Shown piece after piece: positions 16,911 to 47,699 of a DNA stretch of 64,000 nt. How positions within the stretch are numbered: the stretch's first letter is position 1; every line of letters begins with the position of its first letter. Under the pieces are notes generated by a model that worked only from the letters and a program-made list of their open reading frames with translations, searched no databases and was not told where the DNA came from. Made by a program: the position numbers and the translations under genes. The stretch spans positions 144,378-208,377 of the forward strand of contig QZKU01000128.1 of assembly GCA_003598085.1 (NCBI GenBank), in the 5' to 3' direction. This stretch comes from Candidatus Abyssobacteria bacterium SURF_5 (GTDB taxonomy: Bacteria > Abyssobacteria > SURF-5).

Positions 16911-17014
16911 CAGCCACAGGCTGGAGCCCTGTGTCAGGTTCTGCAGTCGCCGCTCCAAATCCGGGTGGCTGAGTCCGACGTGTCTGACGAGTCGGACCAG
17001 TCGGACATGTCGGA
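16911..17014. repeat. Intergenic repeat cluster: CACAGGC palindrome plus GTCNGAC array
   Basis: Two repeat families sit side by side between the tandem amidohydrolase genes. 16911-16938 is a palindrome related to the dispersed CACAGGCT-CCAGCCTGTG element. 16971-17014 holds five heptamers of type GTCNGAC with 9-bp period (GTCCGAC, GTCTGAC, GTCGGAC twice, partial). Confidence 0.75.
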
Positions 17015-17056
17015 AAAACTCGCCCTCGGGGGCCCCTCATGACCTGGCGGCACAGC

Positions 17057-18001
17057 CTATATCTTGTATAGCTTCTGCGCGGCCGCGCCGGTGACTATCT
17101 CGATCTCTTCTTTGCTGAAAGAATACTCCCCGCAATTGACAGCATCCTGAACGGCAGCAAGCCATCTCTTTGAGGCTAGGACGAGTTGCAGATACGGGTT
17201 ATCGGTCCCGTACATCACGCGATACGGCCCGATCTCATCGAGCGCGCACCTGAACATGTGATAGAACCTGTCCGGATGGTAGAGGAATTCTCTTTGCCAG
17301 CCGGAGATGTCGACATAGAGGTTCCATTTTGTTCCGGCGAGCGCGAGCGCTTCTTCCCACCAGCAATGGCCGACGTGCGCCATAACCATTTTGACTTCCG
17401 GGAAGTCGGCGGCGGCGCTGTCGACGAAAACGGGACGCGCGAACTTGGCTTTCATGGGCGCCGGCTGGGTGCCGGTATGAAAGAGTACCGGCACGTCGAG
17501 CTCGCGCGCTTTCTCATAGAGTGGATGACAGATGGGGTCATCGGGATAGAATCCGGTGGTGGGATGAAGCTTGAGTCCGCGGGCGCCCTGCTCAGTCACC
17601 CCGCGCTCGAGCTCTTTCGCGGCATCCTTGCGGCGCGGGTCGACCGCGACAAGATGGACGAAGCGTTTTGGATGTTTTGCGGCGATATCTCCGAAGATGC
17701 GATTCACATCGGAGATTGGCAGGCAATAGGGATCGCCTGAGCACGGCTCATCGTCGCCCATCGCATAATCGACCGTGGTGATGACGGAAACATTTACGCC
17801 GGCTTCGTCCATGTCCGCTATGCATAATTCACCCGTCGGATCGGTGAACTGTTCGTCGGCGCCTTTTACCAGTTCGTCGGGGTCGGCAAACTCTCCGCTG
17901 TATTTCGCGAGGCTTGCGGAGATTATGCGTCCGAGGCCTCGCTTGAATGCGGCCGGTCTCCACCGGTGATCATTCAAATGGACATGTGCATCAATGATCA
18001 T
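17057..18001 (-). CDS. Amidohydrolase (Amidohydro_2) family protein, copy 2
   Basis: 314 residues with the same plan and the same metal-binding motifs as copy 1 (DAHVHLND, VLFHTGTQP, VMAHVGHCWW, MYGTDNPYL). Over the block from TEQGARGLKLHPTTGFYPDD to KAKFARPVFVDSAAADFP it differs from copy 1 only by scattered conservative changes, so the two arose by tandem duplication. ATG 18001 follows GAGGAGGAA. Function unknown beyond the family. Confidence 0.85.
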   Translation of the reverse strand: MIIDAHVHLNDHRWRPAAFKRGLGRIISASLAKYSGEFADPDELVKGADEQFTDPTGELCIADMDEAGVNVSVITTVDYAMGDDEPCSGDPYCLPISDVNRIFGDIAAKHPKRFVHLVAVDPRRKDAAKELERGVTEQGARGLKLHPTTGFYPDDPICHPLYEKARELDVPVLFHTGTQPAPMKAKFARPVFVDSAAADFPEVKMVMAHVGHCWWEEALALAGTKWNLYVDISGWQREFLYHPDRFYHMFRCALDEIGPYRVMYGTDNPYLQLVLASKRWLAAVQDAVNCGEYSFSKEEIEIVTGAAAQKLYKI

Positions 18002-18073
18002 GACGTTCCTCCTCGATGTAGAAATGCCCCGCCATTATATGCCACGGAGAATTTCATGTCCAGAGGAAGGTGG

Positions 18074-18104
18074 GACTCGTCGGACCGGTCGGACAAGTCG
18101 GACA
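18074..18104. repeat. GTCNGAC 9-bp-period array
   Basis: Short array with three clear GTCGGAC heptamers at 9-bp spacing plus a degenerate first unit, in the gap between copy-2 amidohydrolase and the methyltransferase. Confidence 0.7.
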
Positions 18105-18130
18105 CTTGAAAGAAGGTGGAGGCGCTGCTT

Positions 18131-18934
18131 TCATTTCTTGCGTGTCGCTATAAAGATGAGTTCGCCGGGATACGTGGAGCCGAGGGGGCTCTTGTCATAA
18201 TCGGCATAAACATTTTCGATGCGAAAACCCGAGAGCTCGAGCAGGTGCTCGACTTCAAACCTGAAGAAGTAGCGGGTGGAAAAGCGCTGGCTCAGGGTTT
18301 CGGTGCGGCCGTCGGGATAGGTGACGTCGTGGTTTAACTCGAGATCGAGAATTTGATTCAAGGCCCCGCCGGAGCTGACCGTGATGCGGCGCGTCACTCG
18401 GCTGCCGTCGGGCATGGTGAATTCGGGCTCTTCTTCCCGATGCGGCTCAGGACTGTCGATAAGATGAGCCAGTCGTCTGACGTCAGGATTAAACAGATCG
18501 AGGATCAATTTGCCATCCTCGGCGAGATGCTCGCGAACACTTGCGAGACAGGAACGCTGGTCGGCGACATTGAGGAGGTGCTGAAACGGGCGGAACGGCG
18601 TGGTGATCAGGCGGAATCTTTGGCCCAAATCGAAGGATCGCATATCCGCCTGCACGAGCCAAGCGCGCTCCTGCACCTCTTTCGACTCGCGAGCAAGTTT
18701 CTCGCGGCAGACCGCGAGCATCGAGGCGGAAATATCAAGCCCGACTGTTTCGATTCCCGCGCGCGCGGTGGGAATCAGAATTCGGCCGGTGCCGCAGCCG
18801 ATTTCGAGAACGGGTCCGCCCGATTCGCGAGCCATTTCCACGAAAAAAGAGATGTCGCGGCGCTTGCGATAAAGCTCGACGTGGTCGTAAAACCGGGCCA
18901 CAACTGAGTAGATATCTTGCGGGACAGATTTCAT
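18131..18934 (-). CDS. Class I SAM-dependent methyltransferase
   Basis: 267 residues with the class I Rossmann signature: motif I VLEIGCGTGRILIP near residue 40, acidic end of beta2 (VGLDIS), motif II/III (LVQADMRSFDLG) and the later EDGKLILDLFNPD. The substrate is unknown; small-molecule methyltransferases of this subclass are common. The gene lies 17 nt after the GNAT gene, so the two are probably co-transcribed. Confidence 0.82.
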   Translation of the reverse strand: MKSVPQDIYSVVARFYDHVELYRKRRDISFFVEMARESGGPVLEIGCGTGRILIPTARAGIETVGLDISASMLAVCREKLARESKEVQERAWLVQADMRSFDLGQRFRLITTPFRPFQHLLNVADQRSCLASVREHLAEDGKLILDLFNPDVRRLAHLIDSPEPHREEEPEFTMPDGSRVTRRITVSSGGALNQILDLELNHDVTYPDGRTETLSQRFSTRYFFRFEVEHLLELSGFRIENVYADYDKSPLGSTYPGELIFIATRKK

Positions 18935-18951
18935 TTCTGATTGGAGGTTGG

Positions 18952-19455
18952 TCAGGAATCCGGAAACACGATTTCCAGTTCCAGTTCATCGCGGATCCTG
19001 ATTCCGTCCGCGCCGATGAGCGGGATCTCGGGCTTCAGCTTGCGGGCACGGTCAATCGCATTTGGGTAGACCGCGACCAGATGAAATCCGCGCTTCTGGT
19101 AGAAGCGCAAGGCGTTCGTGTTATCATTGGAGGTAACGAGCCAGAGGCGCCTGCATCCCGCTGAGACCGCCGCACCCTTTACGGCCTCGATCAACGCCGA
19201 TCCTATGCCTATTCCCTCGACGCCGCTTTCGAGGGTCACCATCTCGCACTCTTTATTTTTAATATGATAGGTTGCGAGGCTGACCCGCTGACCATTGATC
19301 GTCCCCACGTAACCCGGCAGGAGGACTACGTCATAAGTTCTGCCGCGGGAGATGATTCTGGTTGAGCCCCAGCTTTGCGAGACAAAAGAGATCAGCCACT
19401 CGCGATCGTCCTCATTCAGGCTTCTGATCTTGAACAATTCTTGGGCGCCGGGCAA
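18952..19455 (-). CDS. GNAT family N-acetyltransferase
   Basis: 167 residues; the acetyl-CoA loop is VEGIGIGSALIEAVKGAA followed by RRLWLVTSNDNTNALRFYQKRGF. The start is not ATG: TTG 19455 has AAGGA at good spacing, and a second TTG at 19437 would give the more family-like beginning (FKIRSLNEDDREWL). The substrate is unknown. Probably in one transcript with the methyltransferase downstream. Confidence 0.78.
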   Translation of the reverse strand: MPGAQELFKIRSLNEDDREWLISFVSQSWGSTRIISRGRTYDVVLLPGYVGTINGQRVSLATYHIKNKECEMVTLESGVEGIGIGSALIEAVKGAAVSAGCRRLWLVTSNDNTNALRFYQKRGFHLVAVYPNAIDRARKLKPEIPLIGADGIRIRDELELEIVFPDS

Positions 19456-19933
19456 AGGTCGGATCCTTCATGCAGGTGCGCGATTCCTTTTGCATGCAAT
19501 CTTAACAGATGAAAAGAAAAAAGCCAAACGGGGTGCGTAGTGGTGAGGCAGTCGGACGGGTCGGGCGGCGGACAAGTCAGACAGGTCCGACGAGTCCGAC
19601 CGGTAAGACAGTCGGAGGACTCCAACCGGTCCGACAACTATTCACATCCTGCCGCGCGCCCACTCCGGCGCAACAAAGCCCCGGTAGCACAGGCTTCCAG
19701 CCCGTGGCAGTTGGTTTTAAAAACACACAGGCCAGAGGGCGGCAGTGCCGCACCCGGCGCCACCGGGCCTGGGAGGCTCACTGAAATGCTGGTGGGCACT
19801 TTTTTCGGCCACCCTTACTGGACCAACCGTTTCATATCCTCCTCTGAGCCTCAGCAGGTTGACGGCGGCATTTTGCTGCTGATATTATTCCGTCAAATAG
19901 GGGGAAAGCGCTTTAAGAGGAAGGCAGGCGGAA
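19456..19933. repeat. 478-bp intergenic region made mostly of repeats
   Basis: No convincing gene. Contents: a GTCNGAC array in both orientations (19551-19636); a CCGGTAGCACAGGCTTCCAG-type palindromic element (19681-19709); a GGCCAGAGGGCGGCAG unit (~19727-19774) that recurs near 24.92 kb; and a ~73-bp segment (19771-19843) that recurs, diverged, at 20773-20847 on the other side of the AMP nucleosidase gene. Promoters for the divergent GNAT and amn genes must lie here but are not clear. Confidence 0.75.
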
Positions 19934-20734
19934 ATGGGAAAAAATTCACGTTCATCGGCGGAGGCATTGCGGGAGAAAATCGGCCGGGATTCGCTGGAGC
20001 GTTACACGAACAGTCCGGTCGCGGAATTTCAGCCGTTTATTTTGCTGACCAATTTTTCCCATTACATGACGCTTTTCAATGAGGCGTCCGGGAGAGCCAC
20101 ATGCCGGGGCTCGCTTATGGAGGTCTGTCACTGGCCGGAGGAGCAAATCTCGATCTTGAATTTCGGCGTGGGGTCTCCGATGGCTGCGCTGGTGATAGAC
20201 CTGCTGGCGTTTGTCGATCCGCTTGCGATCCTGATGCTCGGCATGTGCGGCGGATTGCGGAAGAAACACCGTCTCGGCGACTTCTTCAATACGGTGGCCG
20301 CGATAAGGGACGAAGGCACGTCGAATCATTACATGCCGCCAGGAGTACCCGCCCTTGCATCGTTTACGGTACAGAAGGCGGTTACAACGGAGGTGGAGGC
20401 GGCCAAGCGTTTTTATCATACGGGCGTGGTGCACACTACCAACTACCGCATGTGGGAATTCGATGACGACTTCAGGGCTGCACTCGAACGCGAAAAAGTC
20501 AGCGGGATCGAGATGGAGTGCGCGACACTGTTCTCGGCGGGGTTCAGCCGGAACCTGAACGTCGGCGCACTACTGCTTATTTCGGATCTGCCGCGGACAC
20601 GGCGCGGCATCAAGACGAAGGAATCCTCGAAGCGGGTGTTCAAGGAATATGCTCAGCCTCATCTCGAGATTGGAATAAACGTGATGCGGCGACTGCGCGA
20701 GATGGAGCGTGGCCTGCTGAAGAAACAGTGGTAG
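19934..20734 (+). CDS. amn: AMP nucleosidase
   Basis: 266 residues, the short form without the N-terminal regulatory domain of E. coli Amn. It would cleave AMP to adenine and ribose-5-phosphate. The nucleoside-phosphorylase/nucleosidase fold is shown by FGVGSPMAALVIDLLA, MLGMCGGLRKKHRLGDF, TNYRMWEFDDDF and the purine/ribose-binding GIEMECATLF followed by LLLISDLP. ATG 19934 follows AAGGCAGGCGGAA. It stands alone between repeat regions that share a duplicated segment. Confidence 0.87.
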   Translation: MGKNSRSSAEALREKIGRDSLERYTNSPVAEFQPFILLTNFSHYMTLFNEASGRATCRGSLMEVCHWPEEQISILNFGVGSPMAALVIDLLAFVDPLAILMLGMCGGLRKKHRLGDFFNTVAAIRDEGTSNHYMPPGVPALASFTVQKAVTTEVEAAKRFYHTGVVHTTNYRMWEFDDDFRAALEREKVSGIEMECATLFSAGFSRNLNVGALLLISDLPRTRRGIKTKESSKRVFKEYAQPHLEIGINVMRRLREMERGLLKKQW

Positions 20735-21025
20735 AGGATCGCGCCATGCCGGTGAATCGTTGAAAAGCCGGTGGGAGGCTGGTTGAAATGCTGGTGGGAA
20801 TTGTTTTCGGGCCGCACTTTACCGGACCAAACCTTTCACATCCTCCCGTGCGCGCACTCCGGAGCAACAAGCTCCGGTAGCACAGGCTTCCAGCCTGTGG
20901 CTGTAGCTTTCAAAAAACACCCGGGCCGGGCGAACGACTGAGAGCGGTGAGCATCGAGTTTTCGCTCAAACGCACTTGAAAAAATCACACAGTAAAAAAG
21001 CCAACCAAACGAAGGAAAGGATAAC
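20735..21025. repeat. Intergenic repeat region after amn
   Basis: 291 bp without a gene. 20773-20847 is a diverged copy of 19771-19843. 20836-20903 matches 19640-19709, including the CTCCGGTAGCACAGGC ... GCCTGTGGC palindrome (20872-20903). The last 20 bp carry the GGAAAGGA ribosome-binding site of the SDR gene. Confidence 0.75.
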
Positions 21026-21775
21026 ATGGATCTTTACCTGAAGAATAAGGTGGCGCTGGTGACGGGAGCGGGATCGGGTATCGGGCGGAACACGGCCTTG
21101 TTTCTGGCTGAGGAAGGAGCGAAAGTCTGTTGTGCGGACCTCTTCGAGGAGAAGGTCGCGGAAACGGTCAAGATGATCCGCGATCAGGGCGGCGAGGCGA
21201 TGCCTGCGGTCTGCGATGTCCGCGAGTATCGGCAGGTCACCCGGATGCTCAGGGCAACTCTTAATGCATACGCGCAGGTGGACATGCTGATTAATAGTGC
21301 CGGCGTGGCCGCCGGCGGACTGTTTGCCGATACCGAACCCGAGGAGTGGGCGAGCGAAATCAATATCAATCTTATTGGGACCATGAATTGTTGCAGAGCC
21401 GTAATCGACCACATGATCCCGCGCGGATACGGCAAGATCGTCAATCTTGCCTCCGACGCCGGCCGCGTCGGCGAGAAACGGATGACCGTTTACGGGGCGG
21501 CCAAGGGCGGAGTCATCGGCTTCACGAAATGCCTGGCGGTCGAAATGGCGCGCTTCAAGATCAATGTCAACGCCGTCGCTCCGGGCGTGGTTCGCAGTCC
21601 GATGACCTCGTACCTGACTGATGAAATGGCAAAGGAGTGGGCGCGCTACTATCCGCTGCGGCGGCTGGGCGAGACTGAGGATATCGCAAACATGATTGTC
21701 TTCCTTTGCTCCGACCGGACCAACTGGATGACCGGCCAAATCGTCAGCGTCGACGGCGGGTTCTCGCGAGTGTAA
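21026..21775 (+). CDS. Short-chain dehydrogenase/reductase
   Basis: 249 residues, classical SDR. NAD(P)-binding TGAGSGIG (13-20), structural NSAG motif (90-93) and the catalytic triad S143, Y156, K160 (YGAAK) are intact. The acidic residue after beta2 (CADLFEE) suggests NAD(H) preference. The C-terminal MTGQIVSVDGGFSRV is typical. It is followed 71 nt later by an amidohydrolase in the same direction and probably acts in the same, unidentified, catabolic route. Confidence 0.9.
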   Translation: MDLYLKNKVALVTGAGSGIGRNTALFLAEEGAKVCCADLFEEKVAETVKMIRDQGGEAMPAVCDVREYRQVTRMLRATLNAYAQVDMLINSAGVAAGGLFADTEPEEWASEININLIGTMNCCRAVIDHMIPRGYGKIVNLASDAGRVGEKRMTVYGAAKGGVIGFTKCLAVEMARFKINVNAVAPGVVRSPMTSYLTDEMAKEWARYYPLRRLGETEDIANMIVFLCSDRTNWMTGQIVSVDGGFSRV

Positions 21776-21846
21776 GCGGGAAGAGATCTGTTCAGTCTGA
21801 AAGAAGCAGGCAAGGCAAGCAAGGGCCATTTTTTTGGGAGGACCGC

Positions 21847-22725: not shown

Positions 22726-22730
22726 AAGTT

Positions 22731-22784
22731 GTCGGACAGGTCGGACCCCGTCAGACAGGTCGGACGAGTCGGACGAGTCCGACC
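22731..22784. repeat. GTCNGAC 9-bp-period array
   Basis: Six heptamers starting 5 nt after the amidohydrolase stop: GTCGGAC units, one GTCAGAC, and a final GTCCGAC that makes a symmetric end. It lies between the amidohydrolase and the cupin gene. Confidence 0.8.
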
Positions 22785-22805
22785 GCCGATACGGGAGAAC
22801 ACGCC

Positions 22806-23078: not shown

Positions 23079-23255
23079 GGATCATGGTTTGATGCCTTTG
23101 GCTCTGTGGAATGTGCATGCCGAAGCCGGCCGGCTTCGCTCCTTCTAAAGCCATGGCTTAATTCTCTTTTTTTGCCACTGTAAGCTCCTGGGTGCATAGT
23201 ATAGAAGAGGAAAAGTGAACAGTCCTTCTGGGGTTTTTGAGAGGGAGTGACATAC

Positions 23256-24243: not shown

Positions 24244-24245
24244 TG

Positions 24246-24300
24246 GTCGGAAAGAATCGGACGGGTCAGACGGGTCGGACAGGTCCGACTGGTCGGACTC
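24246..24300. repeat. GTCNGAC 9-bp-period array
   Basis: Array of about six units (GTCGGAC, GTCAGAC, GTCCGAC). It starts right after the stop of the coiled-coil gene. It falls inside the longest frame of the next gene, which is a reason to place that gene's start after it. Confidence 0.8.
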
Positions 24301-24341
24301 CTCCAAGTGCCTGCCACCGATCAGAAAGTGGACCTGGAATA

Positions 24342-24785: not shown

Positions 24786-25329
24786 AGGCTGTCTGCGGTA
24801 TGATACGGAAAGCCATCCCTTTTATCTTTTAGGCGCCGTGACTGTCTGGGCGGGTTTTTCACTGCCTAGCCGGTGTCGGCTTCACTCGTAGTTGGTTTTG
24901 TTTTCAAAAGAAGAAAAGCACACAGGCCAGAGGGCGGCAGTGCCGCACCCGGCGCTACCGGGCTGAGTGGCGCTGATTCAGCAAGGGGGAGGAACTTGAA
25001 CAACCCCTGCCAAGGATTGCAATTTTTAAAAAAACACAGCCGAGACGCCTGTGCCGCAGCCGGCACTACCGGAACACGGACAGCCGAGACGGCGGCTGCC
25101 ATCCGACTGGTCTGACGAGTCCGACAGGTCCGACTTGTTCAATTCTCAAATTGCCCCGTACGGAGAATCCGGCCTCGCAATTTTGACAGGAAGCATCCTC
25201 TTTCCTGCGGCAAGGAGCGGTGTTGACTCTTACTTGAATCAGCGCATACTATTGCGCATGGACGGAAAGAGGGTTACCTTGTTCTGCGGTGGGGGCAGTG
25301 AGAGAGGCTCTACCACTCCCGTTTAAGAA
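24786..25329. repeat. 544-bp intergenic region with composite repeats and a promoter
   Basis: No gene is convincing. 24920-24961 repeats the GGCCAGAGGGCGGCAG unit of 19.73 kb. 24980-25040 holds a unit (AGCAAGGGGGAGGAACTTG to ATTTTTAAAAAAACAC) that recurs at ~31.99 kb. 25041-25074 is a GACGCCTGTGCCGCAG-type arm. 25102-25135 is a GTCNGAC array. A 22-codon ORF (25258-25326) precedes the CheB-like gene. Confidence 0.7.
25223..25252 (+). promoter_or_regulatory. Candidate sigma70 promoter of the CheB/CheR/kinase block
   Basis: TTGACT (25223-25228), 18-bp spacer, TACTAT (25247-25252), about 80 bp before the CheB-like start. Transcription would begin near 25259 and include the 22-codon leader ORF. 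Confidence 0.45.
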
Positions 25330-26037: not shown

Positions 26038-27896
26038 GTGCCTCCCAGAAAACGATTATTGAAGATAAACATGCCTTTGAGGAGTTGCTCAACTTCTTAA
26101 AGTTCAGCCGAAATTTTGACTTCACCGGCTACAAGCGGAGCAGCCTCACGCGGCGGATACAAAAGCGGATGGCGACGGTGAAAACATACAGCTACGAAGA
26201 GTACCAGGATTATCTCGAAGTACACCCGGAGGAATTCAACGAGCTTTTCAACACGATCCTGATCAATGTCACGTGCTTCTTCCGCGATCCCGTCGCCTGG
26301 GAATTTCTGGCGAATGAGGCAGTTCCGGCATTGCTTGAAAAAAAGGGCGAGCAAGCGCAGGTGCGCGCATGGAGCGTCGGCTGCTCGACCGGGCAGGAGG
26401 CGTATACATTAGCGATGATCCTCGCCGAGGTGCTTGGCAAAGAACGGTTTATACACAGAGCAAAGATATATGCCACCGACGCGGACCAGGAGGCAATCAT
26501 TTTCGCGCGCCACGGGCTATACAGCAAGCAGGACCTCGAGGAAGTTCCCGAGCGCCTGCACAACAAGTATTTTAGATTAGTGAACGGAAAATACCAGTTT
26601 GACAAGGAACTGCGGCGCAACGTCATCTTTGGGGCGCATGATGTAGTGCAGGCGGCGCCGATCTCACGGCTCGACATCCTTGCGTGCCGGAACACGATGA
26701 TGTATTTCAACATCGAAACGCAGGAGAAAATCCTGGGGCGGTTCCACTTTGCGCTCAATGATTATGGGATCCTTTTCCTCGGAATGGCTGAGACAATGCT
26801 TACGCGCGACCGTTTCTTTGAGCCGCTGAACCAGAAACTGCGCATTTTTCGGAAACTGCCGATGCCGGTGTCTTATCGCCGTGCCATTGCAGCGGGCAAT
26901 CTGGTTGAGCCGGTTGAAGAGCCGGCGGCGCGGCAGCAGCTCTATGAGAGCCTGTTTCAGTTCATGCCGGCCGCGCAACTGGTGGTCGACACGGATGAAA
27001 AGCTGCTCCTGGCCAACCTCGGGGCCGTTTCTCTGTTCAACATCAAGGAATCCGACGTCGGCCGCCCGTTTTTTGAGTTGGAGGTTTCTTACCGGCCGGC
27101 GGAGCTGCGCCCGCTCATTCATGACGTGCTCAATCAAAACCGTGTCATCAATTTGACAGGTGTGGAGCGCAACTTGCCTGAGGGTGCGGTGCAATATCTG
27201 GATATCTACATGTATCCGCTGGCTGATCAGCAGCGGAAAATAGTGGGTGTGGGTATTTTTTTTACCGACGTTACCGCGCATCGTCAACTCCAGAAGGAAG
27301 CGGAACGGATCAACGTCGAACTTGAGCAGGCGCTGGTAGAAGTGCAATCGTCTTCCGAAGAACTCGAGACCACGAATGAGGAACTCCAGTCGACGGTCGA
27401 GGAATTGGAGACTTCAAACGAGGAACTGCAATCCTCCAATGAAGAAATGGAGACGATGAACGAAGAGCTGCAGGCGACGAACGAAGAACTGCAGACAATC
27501 AACGACGAGTTGCGCGAGCGCACGGAGCAATTGAATCAGATGACCTCCTTCCGCGACTCGGTCCTCCGCAGCGTCCCGATGGGCGTCGTAGCGCTTGACC
27601 GCCGGTTCCAGGTAATGATGTGGAACTTGCACTCTGAGCAATTATGGGGTATTCGCGCCGATGAAGCGGAAACACATAATTTTCTTAACCTCGACATGGG
27701 TCTGCCGGTAGAAAAGCTGAAGGATTGCATCAGGACTGTTCTTGAGAATAAGGAAGCTGAGAAAGTCGAGCTCAAGGCGATAAATCGACGCGGAAAGGAA
27801 GTCACTGTTCACGTCAATTGCAGTCCGCTTATCGGGCGGGAAAGGGAAGCCGCGGGTGTGATCCTGGTGATGGATGAGTATCCAAAAAAAGGATGA
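26034..27896 (+). CDS. CheR-type methyltransferase with coiled coil and PAS domains
   Basis: 620 residues from GTG 26034. Residues 1-275 are CheR: N-terminal helical domain (FDFTGYKRSSLTRRIQKRM), NVTCFFRDP, SAM-binding WSVGCSTGQEAYT and LDILACRNTMMYFN. Residues ~295-420 form a PAS-like domain. Residues ~425-505 form a striking heptad repeat of EELETTNEELQST type. Residues ~510-615 form a second PAS domain (VALDRRFQVMMWN). There is no His kinase domain; in related proteins the coiled coil leads straight into a kinase, here encoded as the next gene. No chemoreceptor substrate is nearby. Confidence 0.9.
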   Translation: MSASQKTIIEDKHAFEELLNFLKFSRNFDFTGYKRSSLTRRIQKRMATVKTYSYEEYQDYLEVHPEEFNELFNTILINVTCFFRDPVAWEFLANEAVPALLEKKGEQAQVRAWSVGCSTGQEAYTLAMILAEVLGKERFIHRAKIYATDADQEAIIFARHGLYSKQDLEEVPERLHNKYFRLVNGKYQFDKELRRNVIFGAHDVVQAAPISRLDILACRNTMMYFNIETQEKILGRFHFALNDYGILFLGMAETMLTRDRFFEPLNQKLRIFRKLPMPVSYRRAIAAGNLVEPVEEPAARQQLYESLFQFMPAAQLVVDTDEKLLLANLGAVSLFNIKESDVGRPFFELEVSYRPAELRPLIHDVLNQNRVINLTGVERNLPEGAVQYLDIYMYPLADQQRKIVGVGIFFTDVTAHRQLQKEAERINVELEQALVEVQSSSEELETTNEELQSTVEELETSNEELQSSNEEMETMNEELQATNEELQTINDELRERTEQLNQMTSFRDSVLRSVPMGVVALDRRFQVMMWNLHSEQLWGIRADEAETHNFLNLDMGLPVEKLKDCIRTVLENKEAEKVELKAINRRGKEVTVHVNCSPLIGREREAAGVILVMDEYPKKG

Positions 27897-31631: not shown

Positions 31632-32242
31632 CCCGGGCGAAGAGGATCGCTCGGGCACCGCAGAAGTTTTTAGCTTGTAAGAGCGTGTTGTGAAATATTG
31701 ACCCGCGTTTGTAAATGCGGGCATGCCAGTTGATCCATCCTGATAGTTCACCTCTACTTCACCTCACTTCGGAAAGCCCGAAAGACTCAGACCTGTCGGA
31801 CGTGTCGGACAGGTCGGACGAGTCGGATGGGTCGGAGACTGAACTTCGGAGGAAAAAGCTCCGGTAGCACAACTCCGGGAAAAAAACCCCGGTAGCACAG
31901 GCCTCCGGCCTGTGGCTTTTGGTTTTTAAAAAGAGAAGAAAGACCACAGGCGAGACGCCTGTGGTACCGAGCTGACAGGTAATGATTGAGCAAGGGGAAA
32001 AACTTGAACAGCCCCTGTGAAGTTGCAGCTTTTAAAGACCACCCCGCTGGAGACCTGTGCCGCCGAGGGGGAGAGTCGTTCTAAGAAGTGCTTTAGCACC
32101 TATTAACATGCAATAAAAAGATTGATAAACTATAAATGAGCTCTGCCGAGCGGCGCCCGCCATTCATGCGAATGATTCTTATTTCCGGCTGTCGAAGGAC
32201 AGTACGGCCCGCTTTGAGACCCGCATCCGGAGGGGATGACTA
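31632..32242. repeat. 611-bp intergenic region with repeats
   Basis: No gene found. 31791-31838 is a GTCNGAC array (five units, 9-bp period). 31859-31920 has GCTCCGGTAGCACA and a CCCGGTAGCACAGGC/GCCTGTGGC palindrome. 31944-31966 is a CCACAGGCGAGACGCCTGTGG hairpin. 31990-32040 repeats the unit of ~24.98 kb (GAGCAAGGGGAAAAACTTG). The last ~150 bp before the kinase gene are AT-richer and may hold its promoter. Confidence 0.75.
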
Positions 32243-34945: not shown

Positions 34946-34959
34946 CCGGAGAAGCGATT

Positions 34960-34991
34960 TCGGACCGGTCGGACCGGTCGGATGTGTCTGA
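34960..34991. repeat. GTCNGAC 9-bp-period array
   Basis: Short array (about three units plus a degenerate GTCTGA) between the receiver gene and the TatD-family gene. Confidence 0.7.
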
Positions 34992-35045
34992 TTTCCAGGC
35001 GGGAGTCAGGATGTGCCGCCGGTCTTCAGAGCCAGTGGTCACGCC

Positions 35046-35800: not shown

Positions 35801-35834
35801 GTCCGACAGGTCCGATATGTCAGACGCGTCCGAC
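35801..35834. repeat. GTCNGAC 9-bp-period array
   Basis: About four units (GTCCGAC, degenerate GTCCGAT, GTCAGAC, GTCCGAC) in the 64-bp gap between two convergent genes. Confidence 0.7.
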
Positions 35835-35844
35835 TCTCCGCCAT

Positions 35845-40823: not shown

Positions 40824-40827
40824 CGGC

Positions 40828-41868: not shown

Positions 41869-42083
41869 GGCCTCGCCTCCTCACGAAGATGGGGCAGATT
41901 ATCTTTTCTTCCACGCGTCGAAAGGAGAGCCCACCGGAAATCATGGGGAAAAGGGTCTGTCCCTAATTTAGGTCAGTTCCAGATCATTCGTCAGAGGTCC
42001 ACGTTTTGACCGTGAAGAAAGATCCAGCAGAGGAATCAGGCATGCGTGAGGGACTATCCCTTCGCCGGATAATCCCTCCGCTG

Positions 42084-42113
42084 AAACCCGCCCGGGGACG
42101 TCAGCGGGTTTTT
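42084..42113 (+). terminator. Terminator-like hairpin upstream of the CODH cluster
   Basis: AAACCCGC, short loop, GCGGGTTT followed by TTGAG. No gene on the plus strand ends just before it, so it may close a short untranslated RNA or act as an attenuator. It precedes the TTGACA promoter element. Confidence 0.4.
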
Positions 42114-42212
42114 GAGCCTGTGCTCAAAAGTATATTTGAAAAAAACGGTGAAAGTCAAAGGGAAAATTCGGTTTATCAAGATGGAAATTCTTGGAGGGCG
42201 CCAAAAAGATCC

Positions 42213-42243
42213 TTGACAGGAAGTGGCTTTGAACGGTTAAAAT
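42213..42243 (+). promoter_or_regulatory. Candidate promoter of the CODH cluster
   Basis: Perfect TTGACA (42213-42218), 19-bp spacer, TAAAAT (42238-42243), 27 nt before the first ATG of the cluster. The spacer is slightly long for sigma70. Confidence 0.5.
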
Positions 42244-42269
42244 AAACGAAAAGGGCGGAAAAAACGGTT

Positions 42270-43517
42270 ATGAGATATGTCATCATCGGCAACGGCGCCG
42301 CCGGCGTGCATGCGGCGGAAAGCATTCGGAGGCTGGATAGCGCCGGTTCTATTAAGATAATAGCCGGAGAAGAGGCGCCGCCGTATTGCCGCCCCATGAT
42401 CAGCAACGTGCTCGAAGGTGCGGCGTCGTTTGAGCAGATTTCTCTCCGTCAGCCGGATTTCTACCGCTCCTATTCGATTGATGCGGTTGTCGGGGAGCGC
42501 GTAGAGACCGTTGATCTTGCGGCATGGCAGGTGATCACCGGCGGCGGAAGGAAGTTCCCGTACGACCGCCTGCTGATTGCCGCCGGCGCCGACCCCGCCC
42601 GAGCCAAGTGTCCCGGCGCGGATTTGGAGAACGTTTTCTACCTGAGGACCGAGCGGGACACACGCAACATCCTTTCCGCCCTGCCAAGGGTAAAAAGAGC
42701 GGTTGTGCTTGGGGGAGGGCTGGTGGGCCTGAAGGCCGCACACAGCCTGTTGCGGCGGGGAATTAGCGTGACAATGCTCATCGGGTCAAAACATCCGCTG
42801 TCGATGCAGGTTGATGATTTCGCGGGGAAATTGGTGCTTGATGAGCTGAGCCGTCACGGTATTGACGTGAGGACTCGTTCGGAAGCGGCGGCATTCGAAG
42901 GCGAGAAAGCTGTGCAGAGGGTGCGCCAGACGGATGGCTCAGTCCTGGCGTGCGACATGGTGATAATTGGAAAGGGAGTGAGACCCGCGGTTTCTGCTCT
43001 GCCGCGCGAGCAGATCGAGGTTGGCACGGGTGTCTGTGTGAACGACTATATGGAAACAAGCGCGGCGGGGGTGTTTGCGGCGGGCGACGTGGCGGAATCT
43101 ATGGATATTGCGCGGCGCCGCCGCCGCGTGAACGCGCTCTGGCCGGTCGCAGTGGAGCAGGGACAGATTGCGGGAATGAATATGGCGGGCAGGCGCGTGC
43201 GGTATCGCGGGAGCCTGAGCCGTAATATCATTCGCGTGTTCGATCTGGACGTGCTGACTGCCGGTTTGACGGCGCCGCCGGCGGAGGACGGCTGCGATAT
43301 TCTGAGCCGGTTTGACGCGCGGAGGAGACTATACCGCAGGCTCGTATTCCGAGAGGATCGGCTTGTTGGCTTCGTGATGCTGAATTCAGTCGAGCAGGGC
43401 GGCTTGTTGATGTCACTGATCCACCAGGAGATACCGGTGCGAATTCCGAGGGAGAAATTGCTCGAGAATTCGTTCAATTATTCGCGCGTGGCGCCGATGT
43501 ACGGGGGCAGGTCGTGA
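42270..43517 (+). CDS. FAD-dependent NAD(P)-linked oxidoreductase of the CODH cluster
   Basis: 415 residues, rubredoxin/ferredoxin-NAD reductase type. First Rossmann motif YVIIGNGAAGVHAAE (FAD), second AVVLGGGLVGLKAAHSL (NAD(P)), closing FAD motif AAGVFAAGDVAES, and a small C-terminal domain ending NYSRVAPMYGG. In cooS-cooF clusters of other anaerobes an enzyme of this type (often called FNOR) is thought to move electrons from CO oxidation to NAD(P)+. Its place here before cooF- and cooS-like genes fits that. Confidence 0.87.
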   Translation: MRYVIIGNGAAGVHAAESIRRLDSAGSIKIIAGEEAPPYCRPMISNVLEGAASFEQISLRQPDFYRSYSIDAVVGERVETVDLAAWQVITGGGRKFPYDRLLIAAGADPARAKCPGADLENVFYLRTERDTRNILSALPRVKRAVVLGGGLVGLKAAHSLLRRGISVTMLIGSKHPLSMQVDDFAGKLVLDELSRHGIDVRTRSEAAAFEGEKAVQRVRQTDGSVLACDMVIIGKGVRPAVSALPREQIEVGTGVCVNDYMETSAAGVFAAGDVAESMDIARRRRRVNALWPVAVEQGQIAGMNMAGRRVRYRGSLSRNIIRVFDLDVLTAGLTAPPAEDGCDILSRFDARRRLYRRLVFREDRLVGFVMLNSVEQGGLLMSLIHQEIPVRIPREKLLENSFNYSRVAPMYGGRS

Positions 43518-43560
43518 GGGCTTTGCGAACGGCTGAGGCGCATGATGATTCGGTTGTCAA

Positions 43561-43630
43561 GGCAGGCAGGATGCCTGCGCTACGAGGGCGGTGTGGCTTT
43601 GGTTTGCTGAAAAGGCCACAGAAGCTGACC
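43561..43630. repeat. Intergenic repeat relic
   Basis: Contains GGCAGGATGCCTGCGCTACG and a GGCGGTGTGGCTTTGG ... GCCACAG segment, a diverged member of the dispersed CACAGGC/GTAGCACAGG family, between the FAD oxidoreductase and cooF-like genes. Confidence 0.5.
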
Positions 43631-43652
43631 CTGTGATTAGCGGGAGGCAGTG

Positions 43653-44360
43653 ATGAAGAAGGTAATCGTTCATCCCGAGCGCTGCGTCGGCTGCATGCAG
43701 TGCATGTTTGCCTGCGCCGTCGCTCATTCGCGCGCTAAGAGCGCAGTGGGGGCAAGTCTGGAGAGCCCGCTGCCGCGCGCGAGAGTGCATGTGGGCGCCG
43801 GTCTGTATCGAGAAGGATTCCCCAATCGATGCCGGCATTGCGATCCCGCTCCGTGCCTGCACGCGTGCCTGGCGGGGGCGATCTATCGGGACGAGGGGAC
43901 GCAGTCGGTCTTGATTGATTGCGACCGCTGTATCAACTGCGCGTCGTGTGCGATGGCGTGTCCGTACGGCGTGATCAGGCATCATCAGGACTCCTCCGCG
44001 CCACCGGGCAAGACGGTGGCCGTGAAATGCGACAATTGCGTCGAGCGCCAAGAACGCGGCCTGACGCCCGCATGCGTCGAGGCATGCAAGAGCGGCGCTT
44101 TGACCTACGAGGAAGACGACAGGGCGCAGAAGCGGAAGACAGACGAGGTGGCGCGAACGATTTCGCTTGGCCTCAGCGAGGGGCGCATTGCGCCTGCCAA
44201 GGCGCAAGGTCCAATGTCCAATGTCCAAGGTCCAATGTCCAATGTCCAAGGTCTAAGGTCCAAGGTCCAAGGTCCAAGGTCAAGTTATTCTATTCTTGTC
44301 TCCGCAAGACGGTCGCAATGCGAGATCGAGGAGCGGTTAGTCCGGGGGGAAGAACGATGA
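43653..44360 (+). CDS. cooF: CooF-like four-cluster ferredoxin with repeat-derived C-terminus
   Basis: 235 residues from ATG 43653 (GGGAGGCAGTG upstream; GTG 43650 possible). Residues ~8-160 are a HycB/CooF-type electron-transfer subunit with 16 Cys ligands for four [4Fe-4S] clusters: CVGCMQCMFAC, CRHCDPAPCLHAC, CDRCINCASCAMAC and CDNC ... CVEAC. It carries electrons between CooS and partners. Residues from ~185 on are translated from a 7-bp tandem repeat (QGPMSNV, QGPMSNV, QGLRSKV, QGPRSS) and are foreign to the family. The stop overlaps the cooS start (ATGA). Confidence 0.87.
   Translation: MKKVIVHPERCVGCMQCMFACAVAHSRAKSAVGASLESPLPRARVHVGAGLYREGFPNRCRHCDPAPCLHACLAGAIYRDEGTQSVLIDCDRCINCASCAMACPYGVIRHHQDSSAPPGKTVAVKCDNCVERQERGLTPACVEACKSGALTYEEDDRAQKRKTDEVARTISLGLSEGRIAPAKAQGPMSNVQGPMSNVQGLRSKVQGPRSSYSILVSARRSQCEIEERLVRGEER
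44205..44284. repeat. GTCCAAK heptamer tandem repeat inside the cooF-like gene
   Basis: About eleven copies of GTCCAAG/GTCCAAT (one GTCTAAG, a truncated last copy), period 7. As 3 x 7 = 21 nt, every forward frame reads the same seven-residue cycle without a stop. It forms the last part of the cooF-like coding region. Confidence 0.9.
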
Positions 44361-46249
44361 ATACCAGGAACAGGTTTCAGTCATACAGCATTGCCGACGA
44401 TGCGAGGCTCATGTTGGCGAAGGCGGAGCGCGATCAGGTGCAGACGGTGTGGGAGCGCCATCAGGAGCAGCTTCCGCAATGCGGGTATTGCGAGATGGGC
44501 TTGAGCTGCCGGATCTGCGCGATGGGTCCATGCAGGATCGATCCATTCGGCGAGGGGCCGCAAAGAGGGGTATGCGGCGCCGATGCCGATATCATTGTTG
44601 CGCGAAACCTGGGCAGAATGATCGCAGCGGGCGCTGCGGCTCATTCGGACCACGGTCGCGACTTGATCGAGGTGCTTGCGAGGGTCGGCGAAGGAAAGGC
44701 GCCGGGTTATGAGATCAGGGATGAGAAAAAGCTGGCATTGGTGGCTGGCGAATTCGGTGTGGAGACGAAAGGGAAGGATTCGCTGAAGATCGCTCGCGAA
44801 TTGGCATACGCAATGCAGGAAGAATATGGAACCCGCAAGACGTCGCTTCGGTTGCTTTCGCGCGCGCCGGCGAACAGGCGCGCAATCTGGGCAAAACTCG
44901 GGATCACGCCGCGCGGAATCGACCGCGAGACCTCTGAGATGCTTCACCGCACGCACATGGGCGTTGACAATGGATGGCAGAGCCTGCTGCTGCAGGCGCT
45001 GAGGAATGCGCTTTCCGACGGCTGGGGCGGCTCGCTGCTGGCGACCGAGGTGTCGGATATTCTGTTCGGCACTCCGCAGCCCGCGGTCACTGCCGCCAAT
45101 CTGGGCGTTCTCGAGGAAGACAAGGTGAATATCATTGTGCACGGACACAACCCGATCGTCTCGGAGACGGTCCTTCGTGCATGCCGAGAGCCGGAGTTGG
45201 TTGCGCTCGCGCAGAAGAATGGGGCGAAAGGGATCAATCTGGCCGGCGTCTGCTGCACGGGCAATGAATTACTCATGCGCCACGGCGTCCCGATGGCGGG
45301 CAACCACCTGATGACCGAGCTTGCGCTGGTGACGGGCGCGGTCGAGATGATGATCGTGGATTACCAGTGCATCATGCCTTCGCTGGGATCGGTCGCCGGT
45401 TGCTACCATACCAGGATGATCTCGACCAGCGAGAAGGCGCGTTTTCCGGGGATGGATCATCGGGAATTCACGCCGGGCACTGCACCCGAGACGGCCAGGG
45501 CGCTGGTTCGAGAGGCGATCGAGAATTTCCCGCGCCGGATTCCCGAGAAGGTGAAGATTCCGGTCGAGCCGGTCAAACAGATGGCGGGGTTCTCCGTGGA
45601 AGCGATTGTGGGAGCGCTCGGCGGCACTCCCGCTCCGCTGATCGACGCGCTGAAGTCGGGAAAAATTCGAGGCGCCGCCGGTATCGTGGGCTGTAACAAT
45701 CCAAAGATCACGCAGGATTACGGTCACGTGACGCTCACGCAAAGGCTTATCGAGAACGATATTCTTGTTCTGGATACGGGATGCGCCGCGATCGCGAATG
45801 CGAAGGCGGGCTTGAAAAGGGCGGAATCGGTAAAAGCGGCCGGCAAAGGCCTTGGCGAGATCTGCGGCTCGTTGGGAATACCGCCGGTTTTGCACGTGGG
45901 GAGTTGCGTGGATAACGTGCGAATCCTGATGCTGGTTTCGGCGCTGGCAAACTCGCTCGGGGCGGATATCAGCGATCTTCCGGTGGCGGGCGCGGCCCCG
46001 GAATGGTATTCGGAGAAGGCCGTCTCGATCGGCGCCTATTTTGTAGCGTCCGGCGTCTATACGGTGTTGGGTCCCATGCCGCCGGTAACCGGCAGCATGA
46101 ACGTGGTGAAGTTGCTGACTGATGGATTGGACAGGTTGGTCGGCGCATCGTTCGCGGTGGAGCCCGACCCGGAGAAAGCGGCAGTAATGATTCGGCGCCA
46201 TATCGAGAGGAAGCGGGAGGCTCTGGGACTCCCAGCCTCGCGAATTTGA
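44357..46249 (+). CDS. cooS: Anaerobic Ni-Fe carbon monoxide dehydrogenase catalytic subunit
   Basis: 630 residues, usual CooS length. It oxidises CO to CO2 (reversible) at a Ni-Fe-S C-cluster. All cluster ligands can be placed: D/B-cluster Cys C42, C45, C51, C54, C59, C73 (CGYCEMGLSCRICAMGPC); C-cluster H264 (HGHNPIVSE), C300 (AGVCCTGNE), C338 (DYQCIMPS), C446 (VGCNNPK), C476 (DTGCAAIA), C517 (GSCVDN); acid/base K554 (WYSEKAVSIG). ATG 44357 overlaps the cooF stop. The maturation ATPase CooC and the ACS subunits are not in the window. Confidence 0.96.
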   Translation: MNTRNRFQSYSIADDARLMLAKAERDQVQTVWERHQEQLPQCGYCEMGLSCRICAMGPCRIDPFGEGPQRGVCGADADIIVARNLGRMIAAGAAAHSDHGRDLIEVLARVGEGKAPGYEIRDEKKLALVAGEFGVETKGKDSLKIARELAYAMQEEYGTRKTSLRLLSRAPANRRAIWAKLGITPRGIDRETSEMLHRTHMGVDNGWQSLLLQALRNALSDGWGGSLLATEVSDILFGTPQPAVTAANLGVLEEDKVNIIVHGHNPIVSETVLRACREPELVALAQKNGAKGINLAGVCCTGNELLMRHGVPMAGNHLMTELALVTGAVEMMIVDYQCIMPSLGSVAGCYHTRMISTSEKARFPGMDHREFTPGTAPETARALVREAIENFPRRIPEKVKIPVEPVKQMAGFSVEAIVGALGGTPAPLIDALKSGKIRGAAGIVGCNNPKITQDYGHVTLTQRLIENDILVLDTGCAAIANAKAGLKRAESVKAAGKGLGEICGSLGIPPVLHVGSCVDNVRILMLVSALANSLGADISDLPVAGAAPEWYSEKAVSIGAYFVASGVYTVLGPMPPVTGSMNVVKLLTDGLDRLVGASFAVEPDPEKAAVMIRRHIERKREALGLPASRI

Positions 46250-46288
46250 TCATTTTAACCGACTGACGCTGTTAATGGGAGAGCCAGA

Positions 46289-46999
46289 ATGTATATCGAC
46301 CAGGAGTTGTGCAAGAAGTGCCTGGAATGCCAGCCGGTGTGCCCGATGGGGGCAATCGTGCTGAAGAATCGGACAGTGGTGATCGACCTGGAGGAATGCG
46401 TCGAATGCGGCGTGTGCCAGCGGTTCGGCATCTGCGAGAACGACGCGATCAAGCAAGTCGATCAGATTCCCTATCCGCGGGTGCTCCGGGCGGTTTTTTC
46501 GGACCCGCTGCAGACGCACGAGAGCACGGGCGTTGCCGGGCGCGGTACGGAAGAGATGAAGACCAACGACGTCACCAATCGCTTCACCAGGGGCTATATC
46601 GGGTTTTCAATCGAACTAGGCCGGCCATACAAGGGCGCATACCTCAGGGATCTCGAGAAAGTGGTGAAGAAGGCGACATCGTTGGGGGCGGAATTCTCGC
46701 CGGATAATCCGGTCTACCCTCTGATTGCCAATCATGAGACCGGGGCGCTGAAGCCGGAGGTGCTGGGAGAGAAAGTCATCAGCGCGATCGCGGAATTCTT
46801 ACTGCCGGAGGAGAAAGCGATCGTCGCCATAGAGCAGTTGAAGCGGTTCCTGAATGCCGAACTCGATTGTGTAGCCACGATGAGCGTCATTTCGAGAGCA
46901 TCTGACAATGGGAACAGTTCCTTTTTCACCAGCCTCAAAGAAGCGGGTCATGATATTTATCCGAATGGAAAAGTGAATATCGGGATGGCCCTGAGATAG
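46289..46999 (+). CDS. 2[4Fe-4S] ferredoxin-domain protein with uncharacterised C-terminal domain
   Basis: 236 residues, RBS GGGAGAGCC. The N-terminal ~60 residues are a ferredoxin-like domain (CKKCLECQPVCPMGAI, then CVECGVCQRFGIC with an altered second motif). Residues ~90-236 form a domain I do not recognise (FTRGYIGFSIELGRPYKGAY, VIAIEQLKRF-like helix, IYPNGKVNIGMAL at the end). It starts 39 nt after cooS and is followed 8 nt later by another unknown gene, so all are probably one transcript. Confidence 0.75.
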   Translation: MYIDQELCKKCLECQPVCPMGAIVLKNRTVVIDLEECVECGVCQRFGICENDAIKQVDQIPYPRVLRAVFSDPLQTHESTGVAGRGTEEMKTNDVTNRFTRGYIGFSIELGRPYKGAYLRDLEKVVKKATSLGAEFSPDNPVYPLIANHETGALKPEVLGEKVISAIAEFLLPEEKAIVAIEQLKRFLNAELDCVATMSVISRASDNGNSSFFTSLKEAGHDIYPNGKVNIGMALR

Positions 47000-47007
47000 G
47001 GGGAAAT

Positions 47008-47631
47008 ATGACTCATACATTGAACAGGCGCGGGATATCAGATGAGCGTCCGGGTGAAGAGATCGTGGTCTTGTGCATGGCTCACTGCACGGAGAAGGCA
47101 AACAAGGCAGACGCAATGAGAAGCATCGCCGCGACCATCTTGAAATATCGGCCTTCCAATTATCTCGGGAAACCGCTCGGCCTGGAGCCGGAGGGTCTGC
47201 AGATGATGGCGCCGGTGGCGGGCGTCGTGACGGCGGTATTTAATAACAAGGAGGACGTTCGGCGGTTGATTGGGGACCTGAAGGAGCAAAAGCTGGGAGT
47301 TTCGGTAGTGCTGTCGGGCCTGTTCTCCGATGTGCGGGATATCTGCGGCTCGAACGGCCTTAACGAGCATACCTATCACATGTCGCTGGGCATCTTCGGC
47401 AAGACCGAGTGCCTGCCGGACGAGAAGACCTTGGAGATCACGACCCAGTGCGGGCATTCCCTTATTTCGCCGGCACTGGTCGCCGACGTGGTTCGCAAGA
47501 TGAAGAGAGCGAAAATTACGGCCGCCGAAGGAGCGGCGTTATTGGTGAAGCCGTGCGCCTGCGGGATCGGGAACCCGGAGAGGATCGAGCGCATTGTTCA
47601 GGAAATGGTCACCGAGGGAGGCAAAGCCTGA
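47008..47631 (+). CDS. Conserved-looking Cys-containing protein of unknown function in CODH cluster
   Basis: 207 residues, RBS GGGGGAAAT. I do not recognise the family. Seven Cys: C23-x3-C27 (VLCMAHC), C113, C135, C148 (TTQCGHSLI) and C183-x-C185 (KPCACGIGNPERIE). The pattern suggests a metal or Fe-S site or redox-active thiols. The sequence is otherwise a soluble alpha/beta type (APVAGVVTAVFNNKEDVRRL; LGVSVVLSGLFSDVRDICG). Its tight spacing to the ferredoxin-domain gene suggests the two proteins work together. Confidence 0.7.
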   Translation: MTHTLNRRGISDERPGEEIVVLCMAHCTEKANKADAMRSIAATILKYRPSNYLGKPLGLEPEGLQMMAPVAGVVTAVFNNKEDVRRLIGDLKEQKLGVSVVLSGLFSDVRDICGSNGLNEHTYHMSLGIFGKTECLPDEKTLEITTQCGHSLISPALVADVVRKMKRAKITAAEGAALLVKPCACGIGNPERIERIVQEMVTEGGKA

Positions 47632-47636
47632 CATTT

Positions 47637-47699
47637 GGTCCGACGGGTCAGACGGGTCCGACAGGTCTGAGGGGTCGGACAGATCCGACAGGTCCGACT
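47637..47699. repeat. GTCNGAC 9-bp-period array
   Basis: Seven units (GTCCGAC, GTCAGAC, GTCCGAC, GTCTGAG, GTCGGAC, ATCCGAC, GTCCGAC). It starts 6 nt after the last CODH-cluster gene and ends ~30 nt before the next start. Confidence 0.85.

Follow-up and report, generated by a model that had tools for sequence, protein, structure and literature searches.

The GTCNGAC arrays of the window

The window, by which we mean the whole 64-kb stretch of SURF_5 DNA that was analysed, contains ten (GTCNGACNN)n arrays, which are real, intergenic and well beyond chance. They fit the definition of 9-bp arrays used here (6-bp core, 9-bp step, free spacer and centre bases): three of the nine positions of the unit vary freely, while the cores are kept. 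The first array (16973..17015; five units with centres C, T, G, G and G; fold z −4.2) is located between two minus-strand genes, with a stop codon at 41 bp. The second (18070..18103; four units, the first degenerate) is located 27 bp from the stop codon of a minus-strand methyltransferase gene. The third (19551..19636) is partly degenerate with register shifts and is the one array, at 19567, that lies in a divergent gap. The array at 22731..22783, with 2 + 4 units and one 10-bp step, directly follows the stop codon of an amidohydrolase gene, and that at 24256..24307 (five units) lies 12 bp past a stop codon. Four units at 25101..25143 occupy the intergenic gap upstream of a CheB gene, and six units, including degenerate outer ones, are found at 31786..31837 (fold z −3.3). 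A degenerate array of four units (34959..34992) lies 13 bp past a stop codon, another four-unit array (35801..35834) lies in the convergent gap between TatD-family and MFS genes, and the last (47638..47698; seven units) lies 6 bp past a stop codon.

A dinucleotide model predicts 14.3 occurrences of GTCNGAC in the window, and 45 were counted. Two-unit matches at spacing 9 were found 21 times and three-unit matches 11 times, and 60 shuffles gave 0.0 of either. All ten places reported in the earlier note were recovered at ≤3 mismatches per three units, and eight of them hold at least three exact units in a row or nearly so; the exceptions are 34959-34992, where the outer units are degenerate only, and 35801-35834, where one unit is broken. 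The 9-bp period is thus borne out, but the word "strict" used for it holds only in part. Among the 27 intervals of ≤60 bp in the window, 21 are exactly 9 bp and three are 18 bp, while register shifts occur inside 19551-19636 and 22731-22784 (spacings 25, 35 and 10). A hexamer-trained gene caller placed all ten arrays between genes, as had been claimed, and a stop codon lies within about 41 bp of seven of them.

Statements on the whole SURF_5 genome come from pattern searches and retrieved stretches. The genome-wide scan that the earlier note proposed gave 24 exact three-unit matches in 5.1 Mb and none with a reversed control pattern. The stretches of the genome that were sampled held 24 arrays, of which 23 were intergenic, although intergenic DNA makes up only 14% (p = 4e-19). 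The rest of the window is indeed free of arrays, and other arrays occur elsewhere in the genome; clustering in the middle of the window was confirmed, the 31-kb segment holding 8 of 18 array loci (p = 7e-14). The 24 arrays showed a small excess of mutual similarity, measured against a null that disregards strand composition, and no near-identical copies were found among them. Because of this, and because the loops of inverted elements are mutually unrelated, recent copy-and-paste is not visible here.

A 7-bp-period array, (GTCCAAN)12, was found on the plus strand at 44191..44291, where a gene for a 4Fe-4S protein has its 3′ end. It is probably a related element, and its unit length is that found beside S23/TIGR02436 genes.

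TIGR04258 proteins and arrays in other genomes

Arrays of the same kind are present in many phyla, with up to 828 three-unit matches within a single genome. GTCNGAC arrays were absent from the two related genomes examined, though distant phyla have them. A TIGR04258 ("four helix bundle suffix") protein was encoded in 42 of the 53 genomes searched, namely 50 array-bearing genomes, SURF_5 itself and its two relatives. Several of the absences are small partial MAGs or Streptomyces and Leifsonia matches, which overlap long ORFs and are probably coding. In a Verrucomicrobiota sample, TIGR04258 was found in 33 of 37 genomes with arrays vs 94 of 203 others (p = 6e-7), leaving four array genomes without it.

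TIGR04258 genes have 9-bp arrays within or next to them. Among 126 such genes, a period-9 array was found within 300 bp of 66 and a period-10 array within the same distance of 12, whereas each of the other periods from 5 to 15 was found at 0-2. In a sample not selected for arrays, period 9 was found at 11 of 45 TIGR04258 genes vs 0-1 for other periods. At one locus the flanking arms are kept in the orthologues of six Verrucomicrobiota genomes that are close relatives of one another and probably belong to Akkermansia.

The neighbourhoods of TIGR04258 genes are mutually unrelated, and no conserved adjoining partner gene was found, nor any recombinase or transposase partner or catalytic domain. 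The commonest neighbours were type I restriction-modification genes, a minority of about 5-6 of the 100 nearest genes. Phage records gave no match to a TIGR04258 protein. Plasmids gave one, on a replicon of Prevotella nigrescens, with a CCTAG array just 3′ of the gene.

An AlphaFold model of TIGR04258 resembles the S23 structures 2gsc (TMt 0.80) and 2rld (TMt 0.71), the likeness being to a subunit of a pentamer. Foldseek also gave a weak match to the DGR protein Avd (8ub7_B, TMt 0.66, E 2.6), and a PDB sequence search gave no relative. The partner proteins matched only the profiles TIGR04258, TIGR02436 and PF05635, apart from one member that also matched a zinc ribbon; a C-terminal zinc-ribbon motif is present in two members and is of the Top1 type by Pfam in one.

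Only two TIGR04258 genes were found in the SURF_5 genome, which is 98.5% complete: one in the clade of the 9-bp motif GTCCAY and one in that of the 10-bp motif CACGGAC. No GTCNGAC array was found at either gene, and no GTCNGAC-clade TIGR04258 protein was found in the genome. The GTCNGAC arrays of the window are therefore without a detected partner, which may have been lost or be unassembled; alternatively, the arrays may be cross-recognised.

Unit length, arm polarity and protein clade

Unit length differs between the two protein subfamilies. At 66 S23/TIGR02436 genes of the same genomes, period 7 was found at 32, period 8 at 11 and period 9 once, against 9-10 bp beside TIGR04258 genes. Unit length therefore follows the protein subfamily and not the helix, and the suggestion that the 9-bp period reflects one helical turn does not hold as a rule.

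The palindromic symmetry pointed out for the GTCNGAC class is confirmed for that class, but other motif classes are non-palindromic. These form inverted arms, and 23 of the 24 pairs begin with the purine arm; they also occur as single arms unable to self-fold (e.g. GTCCAY). The arms that flank S23 genes are inverted 37:3, with the purine arm on the left 23:1. For arms flanking TIGR04258 genes the ratio was 9:5, not significant, perhaps because each side may itself hold a complete inverted element.

Six motif classes placed on the TIGR04258 tree required 10 changes, against a mean of 33.5 and a minimum of 28 after shuffling, and the GTCCAY class forms a single clade. Arrays adjoining a gene are inherited with it, so this match alone is no proof of recognition, and the weight of the case therefore lies on tests with unlinked arrays. 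Genome-wide, GTCCAY arrays were found in 10/10 holders of the clade vs 9/40 others (p = 9e-6), GTCNGAC arrays in 6/6 vs 6/27 (p = 8e-4) and AARGGAC arrays in 7/12 vs 1/43 (p = 3e-5; p = 2e-4 without the genome whose arrays are on the gene's contig only); these samples are small and the statistics ignore shared ancestry.

A proposed repeat-and-protein system and its alternatives

The arrays are best read as recognition sites, or else short elements, that belong to putative nucleic-acid-binding proteins of the S23 superfamily and are dispersed in the manner of IVS or REPINs. We hold it rather probable that they are dispersed recognition elements of this four-helix-bundle superfamily, the 9-bp kind belonging to the TIGR04258 branch. 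Each protein clade is paired with a 6-7 bp core of its own, which recurs at a constant step; this is 9-10 bp in TIGR04258 and 7-8 bp in S23/TIGR02436. The basic element would be an inverted pair of arms, purine-rich arm first, that encloses a short loop or else the gene for the protein itself; single arms are a variant, as are single arrays in the case of the palindromic GTCNGAC core. The protein, probably an S23-like ring of four-helix bundles, may bind the evenly spaced cores, with each protomer taking one unit, in DNA or RNA that is double-stranded or folded as a hairpin. Binding may in turn help the elements to survive and to spread between genes in the way of IVS or REPIN/RAYT. The association with the protein, the clade specificity and the polarity are observed, whereas binding, ring stoichiometry and mobility are inferred. 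The evidence points to a repeat-and-protein system so far undescribed, which probably behaves as a tiny mobile element. The interpretation in the earlier note is partly supported: a protein-binding array or self-spreading repeat agrees with the finding that a specific protein family follows the repeats from phylum to phylum and from one motif class to the next, while RNA hairpins at transcript ends are not supported as their purpose.

REP/REPIN sequences with RAYT proteins are dispersed, intergenic, often 3′ of genes, and form hairpins as inverted pairs (PMC3116915, PMC3733652). The arrays share this dispersal between genes, often downstream of them, and the inverted hairpin-forming pairs, as well as a flanked single-copy protein gene, a match of protein clade to repeat class, patchy occurrence over phyla and intragenic copies. 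Unlike RAYT, the partner is a four-helix bundle without the HUH/Y1 tyrosine transposase domain, and in place of a 20-40 bp palindrome the elements have units of 9-10 bp in tandem, the spacer bases being free. The copies in the SURF_5 genome are not near-identical, unlike REPINs, and inverted purine-first pairs were seen in other motif classes.

In 23S rRNA IVS an S23 ORF lies inside inverted repeats, which pair into a long stem, and the element has been proposed to be selfish or mobile (PMC4990558). The IVS protein has the fold and superfamily of TIGR04258 (TIGR02436/PF05635 match at the N-terminus), and S23/TIGR02436 genes outside rRNA, in related loci, have arms inverted 37:3, though at TIGR04258 genes the inversion is not significant. 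Unlike IVS, TIGR04258 has an extra suffix domain, and the arrays are not in rRNA, have arms of short tandem units and include many stand-alone copies without an ORF. IVS are located in 23S rRNA, from which RNase III excises them; Rfam gave no rRNA match in the window, where the arrays lie between protein genes and no S23-family ORF was found beside them. Avd, which shares the fold of the model by the weak match above, is a nucleic-acid-binding ring; no reverse transcriptase or template repeat, as in a DGR, was seen beside TIGR04258 genes. MetJ met boxes are also short palindromic cores in tandem at a fixed step, and are set apart by their 8-bp step, promoter location and ribbon-helix-helix protein. 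A CRISPR array was rejected, the window units being 7-bp cores with 2-bp spacers, where CRISPR would have repeats some 25-40 bp long, unique spacers between them and cas genes.

The arrays might instead be sites that serve the host (nucleoid organisation, transcript-end control or mRNA decay) through a TIGR04258 regulator, neither mobile nor selfish. Strong intergenic placement near stop codons, the lack of visible recent copying in SURF_5 and the arms kept at one locus in six Verrucomicrobiota genomes agree with this. We consider it unlikely in view of the patchy presence of GTCNGAC arrays, lacking in two relatives and present in distant phyla, the unrelated neighbourhoods of the gene, its enclosure by inverted arms and the count of up to 828 three-unit matches in one genome. 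Ordinary variable-number tandem repeats arising from replication slippage, a reading already disfavoured, would explain why some arrays are homogeneous and differ in copy number between close relatives; for example, L284 has tens of CCAGTCCAC units, and orthologues range from 2 to 15 GATAGGGGT units. But slippage copies the whole unit, yet here cores are kept while other positions vary, and it leaves the protein-clade match, the unit length by subfamily and the inverted polarity unexplained; it is very improbable.

That RNA hairpin terminators or other transcript-end structures were selected as such is a slight chance at most, even though many arrays lie just past stop codons and folding of four window arrays gave three that were more stable than their shuffles (z −2.3 to −4.2). 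Shuffling centres and spacers of 118 arrays gave a mean z of −0.11 ± 0.11; because of this lack of covariation, the arrays in divergent gaps and the single GTCCAY arms, a hairpin purpose is not supported, and Rfam gave no match in the window. An intrinsic terminator was rejected on the same grounds, the free positions showing no covariation. One frame reads Ser-Asp-x (SDx) repeats, and some matches in other genomes (Streptomyces, Leifsonia) are probably coding, but fragments of such coding repeats are scarcely credible here: the SURF_5 arrays are intergenic, codons do not explain why GAC keeps its C and NNG its G, and the motif classes include 7-, 8- and 10-bp units.

A search of the open-access literature found no description of the pairing of arrays with TIGR04258/S23 proteins, nor of the motifs GTCCGAC, GTCGGAC or GTCNGAC. 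S23 and four-helix-bundle proteins occur in many bacteria and have solved structures. If each carries its own array, the arrays would be a list of candidate ligands for each clade, and the long-debated matter of function could be tested directly by binding assay. The recognition-element reading, if true, would account for one class of short tandem repeats, so far unassigned, that is present in several phyla, and join the rRNA intervening sequences to a wider family of elements, and a subfamily that sets the repeat step would be a natural molecular ruler. It is possible, though we put it somewhat short of even, that a code extends over the whole superfamily, S23-type rings each reading their own core at a protein-set step of 7 to 10 bp in inverted tandem arms and driving a large cross-phylum class of mobile repeats, of which the 23S rRNA intervening sequences would be the sole part noticed so far.

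The GTCNGAC arrays and their distribution

The ten tandem GTCNGAC arrays described in the earlier note are real. The core occurs 45 times in the window against 14.3 expected, with 21 pairs and 11 triples at spacing 9 and none in 60 dinucleotide-model shuffles. The 9-bp period, which had been called strict, accounts for 21 of the 27 short intervals exactly; some arrays contain register shifts, and the outer units of some are degenerate. All ten were placed between genes, as claimed, by a scan allowing up to three mismatches per three units, and where the genome was sampled, 23 of its 24 arrays proved intergenic, compared with 14% intergenic DNA. A separate 21-bp-period repeat (27356-27505) lies inside a CheR-PAS protein gene and probably encodes a heptad coiled coil.

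The whole genome gave 24 exact three-unit and 48 two-unit matches; the reversed control pattern gave no three-unit match and one two-unit match. Eight of the 18 loci with three exact units lie inside a 31-kb segment (window 16973-47698; p = 7e-14). On the contig carrying the window, 10 of the 18 loci were observed (G000:C128:123339-192039, G000 being the window's own genome). Near-identical copies were absent among the 24 own-genome arrays, which counts against recent copying there. When three genomes of the phylum, the window's own included, were compared, both relatives lacked GTCNGAC arrays. A scan for four exact units, with one genome per species, found at least 114 stretches in many phyla; among the matches listed are Lentisphaeria, Verrucomicrobia, Bacteroidales, Hydrogenedentota, Sumerlaeota, Myxococcota, WOR-3, Deltaproteobacteria and others. 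A few of the matches, in Streptomyces and Leifsonia, fall on long ORFs and are probably coincidental coding sequence.

TIGR04258 proteins and the motif beside their genes

In an all-against-all ORF comparison, the protein most widely shared among array loci was one family found at nine loci, TIGR04258 ("four helix bundle suffix"), whose N-terminus matches TIGR02436/PF05635 (S23, the protein of 23S rRNA intervening sequences). It is present in 42 of 53 genomes searched, 50 of these being array-bearing; the 14 control genomes yielded none. Among 240 Verrucomicrobiota, 127 contain TIGR04258 and 37 contain GTCNGAC arrays, with both in 33 of the 37 (p = 6e-7). Two TIGR04258 proteins (loci L114 and L117) carry a C-terminal four-cysteine zinc-ribbon motif, of Top1 type by Pfam in L114, a feature consistent with nucleic-acid binding.

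Arrays with periods of 5 to 15 were sought within 300 bp of 126 TIGR04258 genes. A period-9 array was found by 66 genes and a period-10 array by 12, every other period scoring 0-2; for genes picked by protein alone, period 9 was found in 11 of 45, against 0 or 1 at other periods. The motif classes include GTCNGACNN, GTCCAYNNN, AARGGACNN, ATGGGNNNN, GATCNGNCN and others. On the TIGR04258 tree these classes require 10 changes, compared with a shuffled mean of 33.5 (minimum 28). All 11 genes of the GTCCAY class form a single clade, and another clade has 10-bp units, e.g. CACGGACNNN. Since a gene-adjacent array is inherited along with its gene, arrays elsewhere in the genomes were examined. GTCCAY arrays occur in 10 of 10 genomes that have the matching clade and in 9 of the 40 that do not (p = 9e-6), AARGGAC arrays in 7 of 12 and 1 of 43 (p = 3e-5), and GTCNGAC arrays, in the Verrucomicrobiota sample, in 6 of 6 and 6 of 27 (p = 8e-4), kinship being ignored in all three tests.

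A survey of TIGR04258 neighbourhoods found no constant partner or transposase; the commonest neighbours are type I restriction genes, yet these are a minority. Type I restriction-modification operons contain or adjoin TIGR04258 genes in several clades (L135, L139, L147, L150, L176, L199, L201), and further such loci are L203, L214, L218, L223, L231, L242 and L246. A contig classed as viral in IMG/VR (IMGVR_UViG_3300014039_000053; L274) carries a TIGR04258 gene and GGAC-type 9-bp arrays. Near the TIGR04258 genes at L148, L142 and L183 there are further inverted arrays: (CACGAAGNN)n/(CTTCGTG)n, and also (CACAGAGGN)n/(CCTCTGTG)n.

Unit length, element architecture and protein structure

Unit length follows the protein subfamily. 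In the same genomes, S23/TIGR02436 genes have period 7 in 32 of 66 cases, period 8 in 11 of 66 and period 9 once, a contrast with TIGR04258 of p = 7e-31 when counted by genes. A genome-wide bias is unlikely as its cause, because S23 and TIGR04258 genes share genomes. The window has one 7-bp-period array, (GTCCAAN)12 (44191-44291), where a 4Fe-4S protein gene has its 3' end; units of 7 bp adjoin S23/TIGR02436 genes in other genomes.

Among non-palindromic motifs, the purine arm comes first in 23 of 24 neighbouring opposite arrays (p = 3e-6), an order that is identical read from either strand. In two genomes a GTCCAY element has roughly four units on one side of a 5-40-base loop and roughly four, inverted, on the other; the loops are unrelated. 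S23/TIGR02436 genes outside rRNA (L301-L321, L326-L370) lie between 7-8 bp tandem-repeat arms, 37 inverted and 3 direct among 40 decidable, a general pattern that apparently has not been described. In six closely related Verrucomicrobiota genomes the TIGR04258 gene is flanked by an ATGGAC array on one side and a GTCCAC array on the other; the number of units in these arrays changes rapidly, up to tens. The end of orthologous TIGR04258 genes at L287-L293 is a GATAGGGGT array with about 2 to 15 units and a DRG-type repeat as its translation; its copy number varies among close relatives.

In the GTCNGAC arrays the GTC and GAC arms are conserved, unlike the central base and the two bases of the spacer, as first noticed. 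The units are nevertheless directional, because the centre is correlated with the spacer: G goes with purine spacers and C with pyrimidine ones. Along arrays the centre switches from purine to pyrimidine 81 times and in the opposite direction 54 times (p = 0.025), a purine-first tendency shared with the non-palindromic motifs. RNA hairpins had been among the functions suggested, and several window arrays, as well as the inverted elements, have better folds than shuffled sequences do. Their free positions do not covary, so that, despite the folding, the evidence favours repeated cores and not a perfect stem.

The AlphaFold model of TIGR04258 is a helical bundle (pLDDT 84.5), and the translated in-frame array forms a poorly ordered loop at residues 117-136. 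The best Foldseek matches are the S23-family structures 2gsc (TMt 0.80) and 2rld (TMt 0.71); 8ub7_B, the Avd accessory protein of a diversity-generating retroelement, matches more weakly (E 2.6). The E-values, from 0.05 upwards, are modest; small helical proteins commonly give such values. Xanthomonas S23 is a homopentamer of unknown function (PMC4990558).

Proposed mechanism and the arrays of the window

The TIGR04258 and S23 protein families, intervening-sequence (IVS) elements and REPIN/RAYT systems are already known. In the open-access literature searched, we found nothing that links short-unit arrays to TIGR04258 or S23 proteins, or that reports unit length and sequence following the protein clade. 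The arrays and their proteins resemble both REPIN/RAYT systems and rRNA IVSs in outline of working; however, the tyrosine transposase that defines the former is missing here, and the latter are defined by an rRNA location which these elements do not have.

On the economical reading, each protein would recognise a core of its own, repeated along inverted tandem arms at a step that the protein determines; the elements, whether or not they include the protein gene, would be dispersed between genes. Within this scheme we infer that the protein binds, to which nucleic acid and with what oligomer stoichiometry, and that the elements are mobile. The window's own genome encodes two TIGR04258 proteins, one of the GTCCAY clade and one of the 10-bp clade, and matching GTCCAY arrays occur elsewhere in it. 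In this assembly, although it is 98.5% complete, no GTCNGAC-clade protein was found. The arrays in the window may be relics whose partner has been lost, a reading suggested by the degeneracy of several units; they may instead be served by a protein from the unassembled part of the genome, or may be cross-recognised by a protein of a sister clade.
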